The notes below the pieces were generated by a model that was given only the letters and a program-made list of their open reading frames with translations, was not told the DNA's origin and did no database searches. Shown here piece after piece: positions 4,407 to 13,995 of a DNA stretch of 33,350 bases. This stretch comes from Rhodospirillales bacterium (lineage in GTDB: Bacteria; Pseudomonadota; Alphaproteobacteria; QKFK01; SZUA-500). The position numbers and the translations under genes are program-made. Positions within the stretch are counted from its first letter, which is position 1. Every line of letters starts with the position of its first letter. The stretch is taken from NCBI GenBank assembly GCA_003252195.1, contig QKFK01000186.1, positions 1-33,350 on the forward strand, given 5' to 3'.

Positions 4407-4444
4407 AAAAAAAAACCGCTGAAAATCACCAGCGGTTTTTTATA
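4407..4444 (-). terminator. intrinsic terminator downstream of the Cys-rich gene (possibly bidirectional)
   Basis: ACCGCTG...CAGCGGT stem flanked by an A-run and a T-run; lies just 3' of the minus-strand Cys-rich gene. Confidence 0.75.
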
Positions 4445-4460
4445 GTAATATTAATATCTT

Positions 4461-4711
4461 TTATATAGCTGACATCAAACATGTTCCTGTTATACATTGC
4501 TTATATGTAGCATCAAACGGACATTCACATAGGTTTTTAGTACCTGTACATGTTGTAATGCTTGTAGAATAGCCCGATGATATACAGCTTGCTGCGGCAG
4601 TATCTGTATGACACGCAGCAGCGTTTGAATAGCAAGAAAAACCACTCATAAAGATTGCTGGCTTACCTGTAGTTGCAACGCAACTTGCAGCTTTTGCTGT
4701 AGCAATAGCAC
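4461..4711 (-). pseudogene. displaced C-terminal segment of the Cys-rich protein (out of frame)
   Basis: Alternative frame encodes AKAASCVATTGKPAIFMSGFSCYSNAAACHTDTAAASCISSGYSTSITTCTGTKNLCECPFDATYKQCITGTCLMSAI, matching the module style of the upstream ORF. Deleting one 14-bp copy joins it in frame. Confidence 0.75.
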
Positions 4712-6046
4712 TGTAGCAATAGCACTTTCTACATTTGTTAAAGCAGCTGACATTGTTGAATAAGCTGTACAAGCACTCATTGCTACTGTAGTAGCTAATG
4801 ATGTAGTTCTACAATAAGCTCCAGAAATAGTCACGTTAGTAGTAGCTGTATATGTAAATCTTCTATCATAATATGTAGTAGCTGTACTCTCAGAATGGCA
4901 GTTAGTATGACATGTACATTTAACATATCTACTATCACCTGAGCATATAGTTGTAGTATAACCAGTTGAACATGTCATAATATCATAGCCATCATTTTGA
5001 CAACCACAATAATCATAATATCCCTCAGGTGGCAGACATTTGGCGTAAGAGTTATTAATCACAAACAATGATTTAATTTTTTCTATCAAGCCGCCATTAT
5101 TATCTGCCATACCAGAAATTGTGGCGCTAGACATTGCACTCATAGCTGCCAACCCATAAGTAGCAACGTTAGAAAGATAACTATCACAGTTATTATCATG
5201 GCAGTTTGAGAAGTGCCCACCAAATGAAACTTTACCCTCTGTTGCTGCACATGACGCATAATTGTTCATTGCTGTTTGTAATGTGGTTGTTGATGGGAAA
5301 TTTGTTGTCCAAGTTGAATTGATAGTATTATATCTAAAGAAACCAGAATATGACCAAGACGTAGTCATCGCATCACTAAACACAGTATAACCCAAGCTTC
5401 CAAAAGAAAGCGCGGCATTATTACAAGTTTCATCAGTACCATAATCAACACATGATGGAACAGATGCCCTATAAGTAGCCACAGCATTAGTTAAGGCTGT
5501 TTTTAAACCAGGGCATGAATCTGTATGACAAGAACACGTCCAATAACTAGTACTTGTTGGGCAATAACTCTTTGTATAGCCAGTACTACAAGCTGTTGTT
5601 CCAAATCCCTGATCCACACAATCCTGATGGCAAGTTGTAATACATTCTTTGTAATAAATTCCGCCACCTGATACAGGACATTGTTGGCTCAACGCATATC
5701 CTGTAGGACAAGATGTTTGCTCATAACCTTTGCTAGCACATTCAATAGCAACATCATAAGCATGACAGTTAGAATAACAGCCATCATCAAGACTTGTAGC
5801 CCCACTTGATGAATTTGCAGAAGAACCTATCATGCCTGTAAGCGGTTGCACCCTAGCATAATTAGTCCCAACTACATCTGCTTTCAAATTCAAATTCTTA
5901 ATAAGATTATTATTTGATAATGTATCAAGCGAGTTATCTGAAGCATTGTCAGCGGATGATAACACCCCTCCGCTTCCAGAAACCAATGCACCACCAGCCA
6001 AACACAAAACCGACAGTGACATTTTAGATAAATCTTTTTTGCTCAT
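4646..6046 (-). CDS. Cys-rich repeat, putatively secreted protein (reading frame prematurely ended by a 14-bp duplication)
   Basis: Start MSKKDLSKMSLSVLCLAGG with SD-like ggagag upstream; hydrophobic N-terminus; several modules of type CHxxC..GY....C..GY....C....Y..C.CH. Last ~20 codons (LLLQQKLQVALQLQVSQQSL) are an out-of-frame readout. Confidence 0.75.
   Translation of the reverse strand: MSKKDLSKMSLSVLCLAGGALVSGSGGVLSSADNASDNSLDTLSNNNLIKNLNLKADVVGTNYARVQPLTGMIGSSANSSSGATSLDDGCYSNCHAYDVAIECASKGYEQTSCPTGYALSQQCPVSGGGIYYKECITTCHQDCVDQGFGTTACSTGYTKSYCPTSTSYWTCSCHTDSCPGLKTALTNAVATYRASVPSCVDYGTDETCNNAALSFGSLGYTVFSDAMTTSWSYSGFFRYNTINSTWTTNFPSTTTLQTAMNNYASCAATEGKVSFGGHFSNCHDNNCDSYLSNVATYGLAAMSAMSSATISGMADNNGGLIEKIKSLFVINNSYAKCLPPEGYYDYCGCQNDGYDIMTCSTGYTTTICSGDSRYVKCTCHTNCHSESTATTYYDRRFTYTATTNVTISGAYCRTTSLATTVAMSACTAYSTMSAALTNVESAIATVLLLQQKLQVALQLQVSQQSL
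4697..4725. repeat. 14-bp perfect tandem duplication
   Basis: tgtagcaatagcac at 4698-4711 repeated exactly at 4712-4725. Confidence 0.97.
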
Positions 6047-6272: not shown

Positions 6273-6440
6273 TCATTTAGAGAAAGTGAATACATCTCTC
6301 AGAAAACCAGGAGCAAGTACCGACAATGGATTAAAACTAATCTCAGGATTGTCATATGTCCCCTTAACACCATAAGTAGCAGCAAACAGACCACCACCTT
6401 CTTTACCAGAAAAGACTTTACCAACCACAGGGATTTTACC
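6273..6440 (-). pseudogene. displaced C-terminal end of the AsmA-like protein
   Basis: GKIPVVGKVFSGKEGGGLFAATYGVKGTYDNPEISFNPLSVLAPGFLRDVFTFSK is the usual end of the AsmA-like C-terminal domain, here in a different frame from the main ORF. Confidence 0.8.
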
Positions 6441-9400
6441 CAAAACTATTAATGGTATAAGCAGGAACAATATCTCCATTAATATTAATTTGCTTCTTTT
6501 CTAAATCTATTCTGCCATTTGCGGTTAAGCCAATAGCACTACCTGCGGTTCTACCTTTATCAATATTTAAAACAGAGTTTTTTGATGAAAATTCAGCGGC
6601 TAAATTATCAAAAGAGATACCCTCACCGCCTAGCAAATCTACAATACCACTAAACGATGCCACAGTTAAAAGTTTAGCCAACACTGGCGCATTAACAATC
6701 TTATAGTTACTAACAGTAAGATCACCTTTTAAAACTCCAGACGTATCCTCATATCCTTTTATCTCTAGAGCCCCTCCAACCATATTATCATAAACGCCCA
6801 ATGACTTAAGAGCTGCGCCAGCATCAGGAGAGCTTATATATAATCTTTTTGTTTTATTTTCTTGGGGTGTAAGTTTAATTGTAATGTTACCATTTCCAGC
6901 AACACCTTCCATCTTCAAAAAGTCTATCTTATCGCCATTTTTGCCTAAAGATGCCGTAACATTAGTAACTTTACCGCTCTTACTAAGCCACAAATTATCA
7001 ACCTGCAAATCTACTTTAAATTTTTCTTGGTTAGCATTAATTGGCTCTGCATCTTTAGCTTCATTTTTTTGTGATGGATCAACAAGTTTAACGATTGTTT
7101 CTTTTTTATAAGCTTCAAACTCTTCTGTATTCAAAAGCTTATACAAATCATAATCTTTACCTTTAACGTCTATATTATCAATAGCCCCATTTACAAAGCC
7201 AACAACAGCCTCAGCATCTGTTCTATCTGCTTTTACTTCTGATAAAGTTATAAGAGATGGCAACCCATTTGAATCCATAGCCACGTTACCAAGGATAGAA
7301 ACATTATTGCCAGTTACTCTAATTCCAGAGATGTTAGTAATCTTACCATTAGCATAATTAGCAGATACCGTAGCAGATGCCACTTCACCCTTTTTCTTTT
7401 GCCAACCAATCATCGGTAAGTCAATTATAGAATTGGTAAAATCGAACCTTATCCCAACATTTCCCTGACCTTCTGTTGTCTCTGTTGCCACCACATCAGC
7501 AACACAAATATCGTTCATATAGGCATCAGAGAAAGGCAAGAAATTTAATCCGAGCAATTTACGAGCATCTTCATCTAAACTTGCTTTTACACGATACTTA
7601 CTTCTAGAATTTGCAAAATTCTCATTAATCTCTAGCTCTAGCGGAATATTTTTTATAACCCCAGTTCCTGATAAAATCATTTTTTTATCTTTTATAGCAA
7701 GAGTAAGATCTCCATTACTAAAATCATCACCTTTGAATATTTTAGGAATAAAAGCATCTTTAATTTTAGCATCAACCCCAACCGCAATTTTATCAGCCGT
7801 GGTTAACCTATCTAAAGCAAAGTTCAAGCTCAAATTAACATTACCTTGCCCCTTAACTTCAGATACATTATTAAGCCCAAAAGCCTTGGCAAAACCAAGA
7901 GGCTCCGCATCTATAATTTTTAATACATTTTTAAGCTCAGCATCTGCGCTAGCTTCTATCAAAGCTCTGCTTTCATACATTCCTAAATTGTATAAAAGAA
8001 CCCTGCCCTTATGTATTGTAGCTCCTTCAATAATTCCTTTAGCAACATCTATATCAATTGCTGTTTTTGAAAACTTTGCCACACCATCAACATTAGTGAC
8101 CTTAGGCATCGTATCTATATAATTTACCGTAGCACCTTTAACCGTTACGCTACCTTTTAGCACTTTATTAATTACGTGTTTTCCATCTTCATCTGCTGCA
8201 AAAACAAAATTAAAATTGCTATCAGTTACAGTACCAACTGTTAAGTTGTCTTTACACCATTGCCATGCAACATGACCTATATTCTCAGGCCAATATTTGT
8301 ATAAATTATCTAGAACAAGACCTCTAGCACGAGTAGAAATATCAATATTCAAATCTTTAATATCACCACTATCTAATAAAGGACCTAAACCAGAAACATT
8401 AATCAAAGCATCTACTTTTGCATCGCCAACATCAACATTGATTTTCTTTAACGAAATTGAGTTATTAACAGATGAGTACCCGCCATTAATCTTAAAACCA
8501 TAAACAGAATAATGATTAGGAACATCTTCTGGAGGATAGATAGTTCCAACACCACCGCTTACTGTAAAATCAAACTTAGTTACGTTTTTTAAAGTAAATG
8601 GCAACATCTTATTTTGCATTTTTGCTTGCTCTTGACCATTTACAAAAGCACCTAAGTCAAAACCAAAATCGACTGCAATATCAATTGGCGCATCAACTTT
8701 CTTTAAAAACTCTACTGAATCGCTCATATTTGCATAATCATACGGTCTAAAACCAGCCACGCCAATCTGACCTTTAATTAAACTATTCTCATGCCAATAT
8801 TCAGCATCTATTTCTAATTCAGCAGGTTTGTTATCAGTATCGATATTAAAGAACGTGTGAGCTTTTATATATTCACCTTCATCTTTAAACCCAATATCAA
8901 AATCTGGGATATTAATCACTCTGTCATTTACGTAATCGTTAATGGTTAAATTAGCATCAATCACTTTTACTTCTGACAGATATTTTAGCCCATCTAACTT
9001 GTTCTTATTTTTTATTACTTCGGCAATTTCAGATAATTCAACAGTATCATCATCTATAACAGCTTGCGTCTTATTGTTTTCATCTAAAGTTTTTTCCTGA
9101 GCAGGCTCAAATACTTCGTTTGTTGTTAAAGCACCCACCTCTGCTCCCATAACAACATTACTCAACTCAGATAAATCTTTATTCAAGTCAGCTTTCTTTT
9201 CTGCTTCATCAACAATCTGAGTTTCATTATCTTCATCTGGCTCACCACCGATGCCCCAATCATTGCCTTTTTTATGATATAGATTAATCACAGGCCTATA
9301 AATATTTACAGATTTTGGGGCTATATCACCATCTAAAATAGCCTTAAAACTAAACTCTAAAGAAAGCTCTGGAATATTTGCAATTACATCATCATCGTCT

Positions 9401-9642
9401 TTGCGAGAAACACTAATATCAATTGCTTTTAAATCAATCGGCTTCAAACCTTTTGCTAATTCAATCTGCACTTTATCTAAAGAAATCTGAAAATTACTAG
9501 CCTCATTGTTCAACGCCTTAAGAATATATGGTTTTAAAAAAGGCACGCGTACGGGGCCTTGATAAAGGCGAACGCCCAAATACAACACGGCACATAATAG
9601 CACCACGCCAATCACATCTAATATTTTGCTTAATTTATGCAA
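6436..9642 (-). CDS. AsmA-like / DUF3971-type large inner-membrane-anchored protein
   Basis: N-terminal TM segment (ILDVIGVVLLCAVLYLGVRLYQG), long beta-rich body, C-terminal AsmA-like region (GLTANGRIDLEKKQININGDIVPAYTINS). Truncated by a frameshift relative to the 6273-6440 extension. Confidence 0.8.
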   Translation of the reverse strand: MHKLSKILDVIGVVLLCAVLYLGVRLYQGPVRVPFLKPYILKALNNEASNFQISLDKVQIELAKGLKPIDLKAIDISVSRKDDDDVIANIPELSLEFSFKAILDGDIAPKSVNIYRPVINLYHKKGNDWGIGGEPDEDNETQIVDEAEKKADLNKDLSELSNVVMGAEVGALTTNEVFEPAQEKTLDENNKTQAVIDDDTVELSEIAEVIKNKNKLDGLKYLSEVKVIDANLTINDYVNDRVINIPDFDIGFKDEGEYIKAHTFFNIDTDNKPAELEIDAEYWHENSLIKGQIGVAGFRPYDYANMSDSVEFLKKVDAPIDIAVDFGFDLGAFVNGQEQAKMQNKMLPFTLKNVTKFDFTVSGGVGTIYPPEDVPNHYSVYGFKINGGYSSVNNSISLKKINVDVGDAKVDALINVSGLGPLLDSGDIKDLNIDISTRARGLVLDNLYKYWPENIGHVAWQWCKDNLTVGTVTDSNFNFVFAADEDGKHVINKVLKGSVTVKGATVNYIDTMPKVTNVDGVAKFSKTAIDIDVAKGIIEGATIHKGRVLLYNLGMYESRALIEASADAELKNVLKIIDAEPLGFAKAFGLNNVSEVKGQGNVNLSLNFALDRLTTADKIAVGVDAKIKDAFIPKIFKGDDFSNGDLTLAIKDKKMILSGTGVIKNIPLELEINENFANSRSKYRVKASLDEDARKLLGLNFLPFSDAYMNDICVADVVATETTEGQGNVGIRFDFTNSIIDLPMIGWQKKKGEVASATVSANYANGKITNISGIRVTGNNVSILGNVAMDSNGLPSLITLSEVKADRTDAEAVVGFVNGAIDNIDVKGKDYDLYKLLNTEEFEAYKKETIVKLVDPSQKNEAKDAEPINANQEKFKVDLQVDNLWLSKSGKVTNVTASLGKNGDKIDFLKMEGVAGNGNITIKLTPQENKTKRLYISSPDAGAALKSLGVYDNMVGGALEIKGYEDTSGVLKGDLTVSNYKIVNAPVLAKLLTVASFSGIVDLLGGEGISFDNLAAEFSSKNSVLNIDKGRTAGSAIGLTANGRIDLEKKQININGDIVPAYTINSFG

Positions 9643-9748: not shown

Positions 9749-12640
9749 ATGAATAACATAATTGAAACAGATATATCAAAAAACAATTGGGACAAGCTAA
9801 ACGAGGCAATATCTGAGCATGTCCAAAAAGATGTTTTACAAAATCATATCAACCAAGAAACTAAAGCCAGTCTTAACAAGATTTTTTTATATAGCCCCTA
9901 TTTAAGCAGTGTTATACATAAGTTTCCAGAGTTGCTAATAGATATAAAATCAAATGCATATGATAAAACTATCGATAATTTGTTACTGCAATGCATAAAT
10001 AAAAACCATCTCCAAACTGATGTATCTGCTTTAATGAAAGATTTAAGAATATTAAAGCAAAAGGTTTCTTTTATTATTGCATATGCAGACATTAACAATG
10101 ACTGGAATTTAGATAGCGTAACATCGTATCTTACCAAGCTCGCAGAAACATGCCTAAAGCTTGCCGTAGATTATATTATGCTCAGCTCTGCAATGCTTAA
10201 TAAAATAAAATTAAAGCACGGAAAGAACCCTAGTCTAGATTGTGGATACACAGTCATTGCCATGGGCAAACTTGGTTCAAAAGAGCTTAATTATTCATCA
10301 GATATAGATTTAATTGTTCTTTATGATGAAAGCAAAATTAATTATATCGGCAGAAATGACACTCGTGATTTTTGCATTAGAGCCACTCAAGAGCTGATTA
10401 AAATAATTGAAAGCCGAACCGAAGATGGCTACGTTTTTAGAACAGATTTAAGACTAAGACCAGACCCAGCATCAACCCCAATTGCTGTATCTATTGAAAC
10501 AGCAGAAAATTATTATGAAACCATGGGAATGAACTGGGAAAGAGCCGCTATGATAAAGGCTCGGAGTGTGGCTGGAGATATATCTCTAGGTAGTGACTTT
10601 ATAAAATATATTCGCCCCTTTATCTGGAGACGCAATTTAGATTTGCGCGCCATAAAAGATATATATGCAATTAAAAATCAGATTAAAAATCAACATAGCA
10701 ATAATCTTGATAACAGCTTAATGGGTCACAACATAAAGCTTGGCACTGGAGGCATTCGCTTTATTGAGTTTTATGCACAAATTCAGCAACTAATCTGGGG
10801 TGGCAAAAAACCTATATTAAGAGAACAACAAACATTAAAAGCATTAGAGCTACTTTATAATGATGGCTTAATCAGCAAGGCCGATTTAGATAAATTAACA
10901 TCAGCCTATATTTACTTACGCAACTTAGAGCATCGCCTACAAATGGTAGAAGATGAACAAACTCAAACCTTGCCAAAATCTAGTGATGAATATGCTAAAA
11001 TAGCCTATTTTAGCAATTATAATAATTCTGATGATTTTTCAAAAGAACTTATAAGTCACCTTAAGAATGTTGATAATATTTTTAACAAATTATTCCCTGA
11101 CATTAATGGTGATGCAAACCATATATCATTTACTTCTGAAACAGCCTCACCTGATAATTTAGAACTATTGCGCTCGTTGTCTTTTACAAATGCAGAGGCT
11201 GTTTATGAGATAATACGCAAATGGCAAAGTGGTTACCCTAAAATATTAAGAACCCAAAAGGCCAGAGATATCTTTGATGAGCTAATTCCTTATATTTTAG
11301 AAAAACTTAGCAAAAGTGATAACCCTGATAGCGCATTAATTCAGTTTGATACTTTTATATCTAAATTACCTGCTAGCGAACAGATTATTAACCTACTTGG
11401 CTCAAGCAAAAGCATAATAGATTTAATAATTGAGGTTATCTCAACTGCCCCTAAACTTGGCAGTTATTTATCTTCGCACCCATCTGTAATGGATAATGTT
11501 TTATCACCAAGCTTCTTTTCAGCTATACCTGATTACAAAACACTTTCATCTGAGCTAAAAATTGCCTTAGAGAATTCTCTAAACTTAGAAGATTGCTTAC
11601 ATGCTTGCCGAAATTGGTTTAAGGGCAAAGAATTTCAACTTGGAATTCAAATGTTAAAAGGCTTTATATCTGGCATAGACGCGGGTAAAAAACTTGCAGA
11701 AATAACCGACATAACCATAGGCTTATTATTACCATATGTGCGAGATGACTTAAGAAAGAGATATGGCTATTTTGACAATGTAAGCCTTGCGTTAGTTGCC
11801 TTTGGAAAACTCGGGTCAAGAGAGATGAGTTTTGATTCTGACCTAGATTTAATGTTTATATATGACATGCCTAACCTTGATGTACAAAGCAATGGCGGAA
11901 CCAGCTCCATTGCCCCTAGCACTTATTTTACTAAACTTGTACAAAGATTTTCTAGCGCTGTAACCCTAGAAACATATGAAGGTAAATTATGGGAAATTGA
12001 TATGCGTTTACGCCCATCTGGAAACGCAGGCCCTCTTGCAACATCGCTTGAAGGGTTTAGAAATTATCAGTTAAATGAAGCTTGGGTATGGGAACATCAA
12101 GCTCTAACTAAGGCAAGAGTAATTTATGGCAATGAGGCCATAAAAACAAAAATTGAAACCATTATTAAATCCGTCTTATCTCGTCGCAGAAATAACGAAG
12201 AACTAGCTCAAGAAATCTTAAAAATGCGCGAAAGGATTGCAGGACAATTTACCCCATCTTCTATTTTAGATATTAAATACACAGATGGTGGAATGATTGA
12301 TATTGAGTTTTTTGTTCAATATATGATACTTGCCAATGCTCATCAATATCCAGACAAACTGATTGGTAACAGCACCAAAGATACAATAATTGAGCTAAGC
12401 AATACTGGTATAATAACGAAAGAACAAGCCGAGGTGCTAAGCCAAACTTATTCATTATTAATAAGCTTAAAAGCGCTATTTAGCCAAACAATTGAAGGCA
12501 AGGTAACTATTGATAATATCCCCGAAGCATGTCAACAAAAGATTACCCAAATCACCAAACAAAATAGCTTTGCTGATGCGATAGTATTTATAGAAAAGAG
12601 TTTATCTACTGCTAAAAATATCTGCTCTAAATATTACTAA
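9749..12640 (+). CDS. glnE: bifunctional glutamine synthetase adenylyltransferase/deadenylyltransferase
   Basis: Two nucleotidyltransferase motifs (AMGKLGSKELNYSSDIDLIVLYDE; AFGKLGSREMSFDSDLDLMFIYD), RLRPDPASTPIAVS, RLRPSGNAGPLATS, GGMIDIEFFVQY. Confidence 0.95.
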   Translation: MNNIIETDISKNNWDKLNEAISEHVQKDVLQNHINQETKASLNKIFLYSPYLSSVIHKFPELLIDIKSNAYDKTIDNLLLQCINKNHLQTDVSALMKDLRILKQKVSFIIAYADINNDWNLDSVTSYLTKLAETCLKLAVDYIMLSSAMLNKIKLKHGKNPSLDCGYTVIAMGKLGSKELNYSSDIDLIVLYDESKINYIGRNDTRDFCIRATQELIKIIESRTEDGYVFRTDLRLRPDPASTPIAVSIETAENYYETMGMNWERAAMIKARSVAGDISLGSDFIKYIRPFIWRRNLDLRAIKDIYAIKNQIKNQHSNNLDNSLMGHNIKLGTGGIRFIEFYAQIQQLIWGGKKPILREQQTLKALELLYNDGLISKADLDKLTSAYIYLRNLEHRLQMVEDEQTQTLPKSSDEYAKIAYFSNYNNSDDFSKELISHLKNVDNIFNKLFPDINGDANHISFTSETASPDNLELLRSLSFTNAEAVYEIIRKWQSGYPKILRTQKARDIFDELIPYILEKLSKSDNPDSALIQFDTFISKLPASEQIINLLGSSKSIIDLIIEVISTAPKLGSYLSSHPSVMDNVLSPSFFSAIPDYKTLSSELKIALENSLNLEDCLHACRNWFKGKEFQLGIQMLKGFISGIDAGKKLAEITDITIGLLLPYVRDDLRKRYGYFDNVSLALVAFGKLGSREMSFDSDLDLMFIYDMPNLDVQSNGGTSSIAPSTYFTKLVQRFSSAVTLETYEGKLWEIDMRLRPSGNAGPLATSLEGFRNYQLNEAWVWEHQALTKARVIYGNEAIKTKIETIIKSVLSRRRNNEELAQEILKMRERIAGQFTPSSILDIKYTDGGMIDIEFFVQYMILANAHQYPDKLIGNSTKDTIIELSNTGIITKEQAEVLSQTYSLLISLKALFSQTIEGKVTIDNIPEACQQKITQITKQNSFADAIVFIEKSLSTAKNICSKYY

Positions 12641-12881: not shown

Positions 12882-13995
12882 TTATTCTTCGTCTGAAGTT
12901 TTTACTCTCGCTGCCAAACTTGCCGTTAAAAATAAGTCTAAATCGCCGTCTAGCACGCCCTTAGTGTCAGATGTTTCTGCCTCTGTGCGCAAGTCTTTAA
13001 CCAATTGATATGGTTGCAACACATATGAACGAATTTGATGTCCCCAACCGATATCCGATTTTGTATCTTCAAGTTCTTTAGACTTTTCTTCACGCTTTTG
13101 CAACTCAGCTTCATATAATCTAGCACGAAGCATCGCCCAAGCAGAAGTTCTGTTTTGCAACTGCGAACGTTGGCTCTGACATTGAACTACAATTCCAGTT
13201 GGAATGTGAGTAATACGCACAGCAGAGTCCGTTTTATTAACATGTTGCCCACCAGCACCAGATGCACGGTAAGTATCGATACGGCAGTCTTTTTCTTCAA
13301 TGTTTATTTCAATATTATCATCTACCTCAGGATAAACCCATATTGAAGCAAAGCTAGTATGACGACGAGCAGATGAGTCAAAAGGAGAAATACGAACTAA
13401 ACGATGCACACCACTTTCAGTCTTTAACCAACCATAAGCATTAAAACCACTGACCTTAATTGTCGCAGATTTAATACCTGCAACATCGCCTTCACTTTCT
13501 TCTATATATTCAAGCTTATAATCATGTGCTTCGGCCCACCTAACATACATACGCATAAGCATTTCAGCCCAATCTTGGGCTTCTGTACCGCCCGAACCTG
13601 CATGTACTTCAATAAAGCAATTATTTTGGTCTGCCTCACCAGATAATAATGCTAATAATTCTTGCTTTGCCGCTGTTTCTTCTAGCAAAGCCAAATTAGA
13701 AATAGCCTCTTCTATAATAGCTTCATCACCTTCAATCTCGCCCAACTCGGCAATCTCCAAGGTGTCATTTAAGTCTTTTTCTAGTTTTTTATAATTATCT
13801 ATTGCATCTTCTAAATGCGTACGCTCTTGCATTAGCTTTTGTGCTTGTTCTTGGTTATCCCACAAATTTGGAGATTCTGCTAATGCGTTTAATTCTTCTA
13901 GGCGGATAATAGAATTATCCCAGTCAAAGATGCCTCCTTAGCAGTAGCATTGACCGCTTAATCTGATTACTTTTTTCAGCTATTTCTGCACGCAA
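12882..13995 (-). CDS. prfB: peptide chain release factor 2 (programmed +1 frameshift at 13924-13929)
   Basis: RF2 GGQ motif ([19 protein letters not shown]), RF2-type [20 protein letters not shown]. Upstream in the 0 frame: TTG-start [23 protein letters not shown] followed by CTT TGA C, continuing in +1 as [27 protein letters not shown]. Confidence 0.93.
13921..13940 (-). promoter_or_regulatory. RF2 programmed +1 ribosomal frameshift site
   Basis: Minus strand reads AGGAGG CAT CTT TGA CTG: SD-like hexamer, 3-nt spacer, CUU slip codon, in-frame UGA followed by C. Confidence 0.93.

Follow-up and report, generated by a model that had tools for sequence, protein, structure and literature searches.

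An exact 14-bp tandem duplication, probably accidental, displaces the last Cys module of a putative exported protein

Hypermutable repeat numbers are the recognition sign of repeat-tract switching, as set out in a review of SSR contingency loci (PMC11868660), and changes in tandem-repeat copy number make promoters of M. tuberculosis phase-variable (PMC12817950). For lrp of Xenorhabdus, phase variation was rejected as the reading of diverse mutations that include duplications of 26–116 bp (PMC6786866). On microhomology-mediated tandem duplications, our literature search yielded nothing beyond a fungal review. Against this background we analyzed a 33,350-nucleotide stretch of DNA, hereafter the window, in which the gene for a Cys-rich protein leaves its reading frame at a short duplication.

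The gene lies on the minus strand and starts with an ATG at 6046 (Table 1). The first-pass annotation had described a 14-bp unit, TGTAGCAATAGCAC, in two exact back-to-back copies (4698–4711 and 4712–4725), and this was confirmed. The period-14 match around the unit reaches 4697–4726, corresponding to 2.1 copies, and is the sole site of this kind in the window; a second occurrence of the unit was absent across the 2.27-Mb genome. None of 100 dinucleotide-preserving shuffles produced a comparable site when up to 3 mismatches were allowed, and the duplication is thus not a product of chance. Since 14 is not divisible by three (remainder 2), it breaks the frame.

Frames A and B were analyzed separately. 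Frame A is native up to the duplication and then runs through 21 out-of-frame residues of no recognizable kind (VLLLQQKLQVALQLQVSQQSL) to a stop codon about 200 bp short of a terminator-like hairpin. The frame-B tail comprises 79 aa with nine Cys (4700–4464) and ends at a stop codon at 4461–4463, about 20 bp upstream of the same hairpin (4441–4410), which is strong and has 13 pairs. When the tail was searched by blastp in a seven-sequence database against the paralogues described below, matches were obtained to C173 (E = 2e-5), C46 (E = 1.4e-4), C191 (E = 3e-4), C10 (E = 4.5e-4) and C117b (E = 1e-3); an example is SCYSNAAACHTD aligned with SCYSNAAICHTD of the C46 protein. The tail homology rests on blastp: a loose-pattern Cys-module profile made from the paralogues recognized three modules in frame A and did not have the tail frame among its matches. 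As the tail matches modules of the paralogues, frame B belongs to the gene, and at the level of predicted protein the homology shows it to be coding and part of the Cys-rich protein. The earlier proposals that the duplication puts the gene out of frame, that the tail in the other frame fits the Cys-module style and that the restored end lies just before a terminator are all borne out by these data.

Table 1 Features of the broken gene, of its neighbour and of the other genes split by exact tandem duplications
Feature	Position	Strand	Basis or detail
Exact tandem duplication, 2 × 14 bp (TGTAGCAATAGCAC)	4698–4725	.	sequence and shuffle test
Frame A, N-terminal 466 aa of exported-type Cys-rich protein	4649–6046	-	stop 4646–4648
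Frame B, displaced C-terminal Cys module plus stop codon, homologue of paralogue modules	4461–4700	-	
Intrinsic-terminator-like hairpin and T tail	4410–4441	-	consensus scan
Displaced C-terminal piece of YhdP-like gene	6276–6446	-	short indel at T run near 6447
Split gene: Cys-rich gene of the window	4698–4725	-	14 bp
Split gene: Cys-rich paralogue L014:1014–1847	L014:1021–1034		7 bp, GCTCTTT twice
Split gene: large DUF7948/SBBP beta-propeller protein	L081:3140–3160		10 bp
Split gene: beta-flower/TrbI, DotG-like type IV secretion gene	L092:9056–9101		23 bp
Split gene: secA	L107:1202–1216		7 bp; SEC-C motif out of frame with the SecA domains

The window gene and seven paralogues, the latter spread over five contigs of the same genome, form a family of eight. 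Its members have in common a signal-type segment at the N-terminus, the invariant motif CYSNC and Cys modules that read CHTDTAQQC-DAGY-TTC-TGYT-C-YNS-YYKC in the paralogue alignment (also written CHTD..QC..GY..TTC..GY...C...YY.C); invariant alignment positions are C90-Y-S-N-C94, C143, C153, G156 and Y157, and several paralogues have a long repetitive C-terminus. The window protein fits in with its hydrophobic N-terminal segment, CYSNC and Cys modules (profile E = 1.6e-98, its own row included), and from its N-terminus we infer that it is exported and located at the surface. Neither the protein nor the paralogues matched Pfam or NCBIfam above curated cut-offs, the family had no match in the PDB, and no relative was found in scans of the genome and viral contig collections or in a tblastn search of plasmids. 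Searches of 58 genomes and of 386 genomes of the class returned no orthologue. They gave weak matches at the level of modules, in the 386-genome search mainly to one family with six loci in genome G266 (E = 6e-8 to 1e-6); the source genome is the sole member of its order among the genomes compared. Single-sequence fold prediction was unusable (mean pLDDT 33.5). The family is best read as a set of lineage-specific, putatively exported Cys-rich proteins. Next to the Cys-rich paralogue on contig C191, four consecutive related genes (L017:370–3567) encode proteins of about 255–270 aa of similar layout. On contig C10 a further Cys-rich paralogue adjoins the ClpA-like gene that is also found in the window.

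Next to the Cys-rich gene, a YhdP-like gene (main ORF 6436–9642) is also frameshifted near its 3' end. Its tail stands here in a frame of 75 aa; among 35 related genomes, the open frames that hold matches to this tail are nearly all long, mostly of at least 900 aa, and a few are of 223–735 aa. The frameshift (6276–9642, minus strand) was missing from the first-pass annotation. Elsewhere in the window, a classical-looking RF2 programmed-frameshift site (AGGAGG CAT CTT TGA C) precedes the ORF listed for prfB (12882–13990, minus strand).

Exact non-triplet tandem duplications that split long open frames were then scanned for in 721 kb, or 32% of the genome. Five clear cases were obtained, one each in the window and in loci L014, L081, L092 and L107 (Table 1); a sixth candidate (L141) was weak. 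Among the genes hit is secA, which is single-copy in this genome, with the copy spread over two overlapping contigs. Where the Cys-rich paralogue of L014 breaks, its neighbour (L014:2715–4364) reads on. Three or four of the five genes encode envelope or secretion proteins. Two of the five belong to the Cys-rich family, whose genes account for 1.8% of the bases in the sample (P = 0.003); with the prompting window case removed P is 0.066, and secA carries the same kind of duplication. The repeat unit and its position differ from gene to gene, and no repeat tract is kept among the paralogues. Exact tandem duplications with 0–2 extra matching bases account for a large share of the frameshifts seen. 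As to controls, 200 kb of the low-GC genome G030 gave one candidate, which was a gene boundary, and the resulting 0 against about 1.4 expected is uninformative; high-GC genomes were of no use because their chance open frames are long. Further irregularities came to light in passing: the DotG/TrbI-like gene of L092, adjoined by a DotB-like ATPase, is apparently split again upstream at about 10295–10302, a gene resembling that of a VirD4-like coupling protein (L045:665–1672, minus strand) is frameshift-split without a tandem duplication, and at L079:1235–1304 a terminator-like hairpin is itself duplicated in tandem, exactly, over 34 bp.

Because conserved housekeeping genes, secA included, are broken likewise in the same draft genome, we infer that the duplication is accidental. 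According to this reading, one accidental head-to-tail copy of a 14-bp stretch would have arisen, through slippage during replication in the cells or through an error in a draft assembly of mixed strains. The duplication shifts the frame and takes away the last Cys module, and it would be an ordinary loss-of-module indel and no dedicated switch. We consider such an accident, in cells or in assembly, in a member of a lineage-specific family of presumably exported Cys-rich proteins, to be the probable explanation.

A narrower version of the same explanation places the event entirely in the assembly or consensus: the cells would have one copy, and the second would stem from joining reads of mixed strains. 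Its share overlaps with that of the broader reading, and we give it somewhat less than an even chance. Strain mixture in the bin follows from contig ends that overlap at 96–98% identity over hundreds of bases; positions 1–915 of the window, for example, align without gaps to L013:3342–4256 on contig C10 at 97.2% identity. Contamination of the bin is 5%. The breaks in conserved genes and the high share of exact duplications with 0–2 extra matching bases among the frameshifts point in the same direction. On the other hand, many contig ends share overlaps of exactly 144 bp and Ns are absent from the sample. These features suggest a graph assembly from read-derived words, with both copies present in reads; this argues against a simple scaffolding error, not against a real mutation. 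Nor does secA prove an error, as its C-terminal SEC-C tail is dispensable in E. coli.

The first-pass annotation had further proposed phase variation by slippage or, as an alternative, a recent inactivating mutation; the latter may apply. In phase variation, slippage between the 14-bp copies would reversibly add and remove the C-terminal Cys module, and other family members and envelope genes would behave likewise. An exact non-triplet unit near the 3' end of a gene for an exported-type protein would suit such a switch, as would the independent exact 7-bp frame break in a family member and the 10-bp duplication in a large DUF7948/SBBP protein, and switching by tandem-repeat copy number has its precedent in the M. 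tuberculosis promoters. However, two copies are a poor substrate for slippage, a multi-copy hypermutable tract is absent, and the bin yielded the two-copy form only, with no one-copy allele. In addition, secA, two type IV secretion genes (one of the secretion core) and the YhdP-like neighbour are broken too and are not expected to switch, and paralogues with different units in different positions do not have a tract in common. Phase variation is therefore unsupported by these data, and we regard it as unlikely. More improbable again would be a diversification of the exported Cys-module and repeat-rich proteins, together with other envelope genes, by recurrent and reversible de novo tandem duplications of 7–23 bp that turn C-terminal modules on and off and need no pre-existing tract.

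The protein could also end naturally at the stop of frame A, and the reading downstream could be a product of chance, given that frame A simply stops at 4646 and that an assembly does not prove translation of frame B. Matches of the tail to several paralogues (E from 1e-3 to 2e-5), its nine Cys in family spacing and its stop just before the hairpin make this very improbable. Least likely is programmed ribosomal frameshifting that joins frames A and B: frame B reads through the junction without a stop, but the stretch scanned around it has no X XXY YYZ heptamer, unlike the clear prfB-type site in the window, and the exact duplication already accounts for the shift.

If the indel is accidental, as we favour, it matters little in itself, as the sign of a single broken gene in a draft genome; frames in this bin need checking before pseudogenes or phase variation are claimed from them. 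Were the duplication real and reversible, it would represent a repeat-tract-free route to the switching of surface proteins.

Compared with known systems, the protein resembles the Cys-module proteins of G266, another family of the same class, in the kind of C/GY/C spacing and in occurring in several copies per genome; unlike the present family, the G266 proteins match weakly and within modules, and the two that were read have no CYSNC or CHTD. With SSR contingency loci (PMC11868660) the locus shares a repeat unit of non-triplet length that lies within the coding sequence for an exported-type protein, whereas its two copies of a long unit, the lack of a tract conserved in paralogues, the conserved genes hit and the absence of allelic variants among the sequences seen set it apart. 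Although its unit is shorter than the 26–116 bp of Xenorhabdus lrp, and although it is known from an assembly, the duplication is like the spontaneous tandem duplications described there (PMC6786866), in that a gene is broken where a short piece of its coding sequence is repeated exactly, head to tail.
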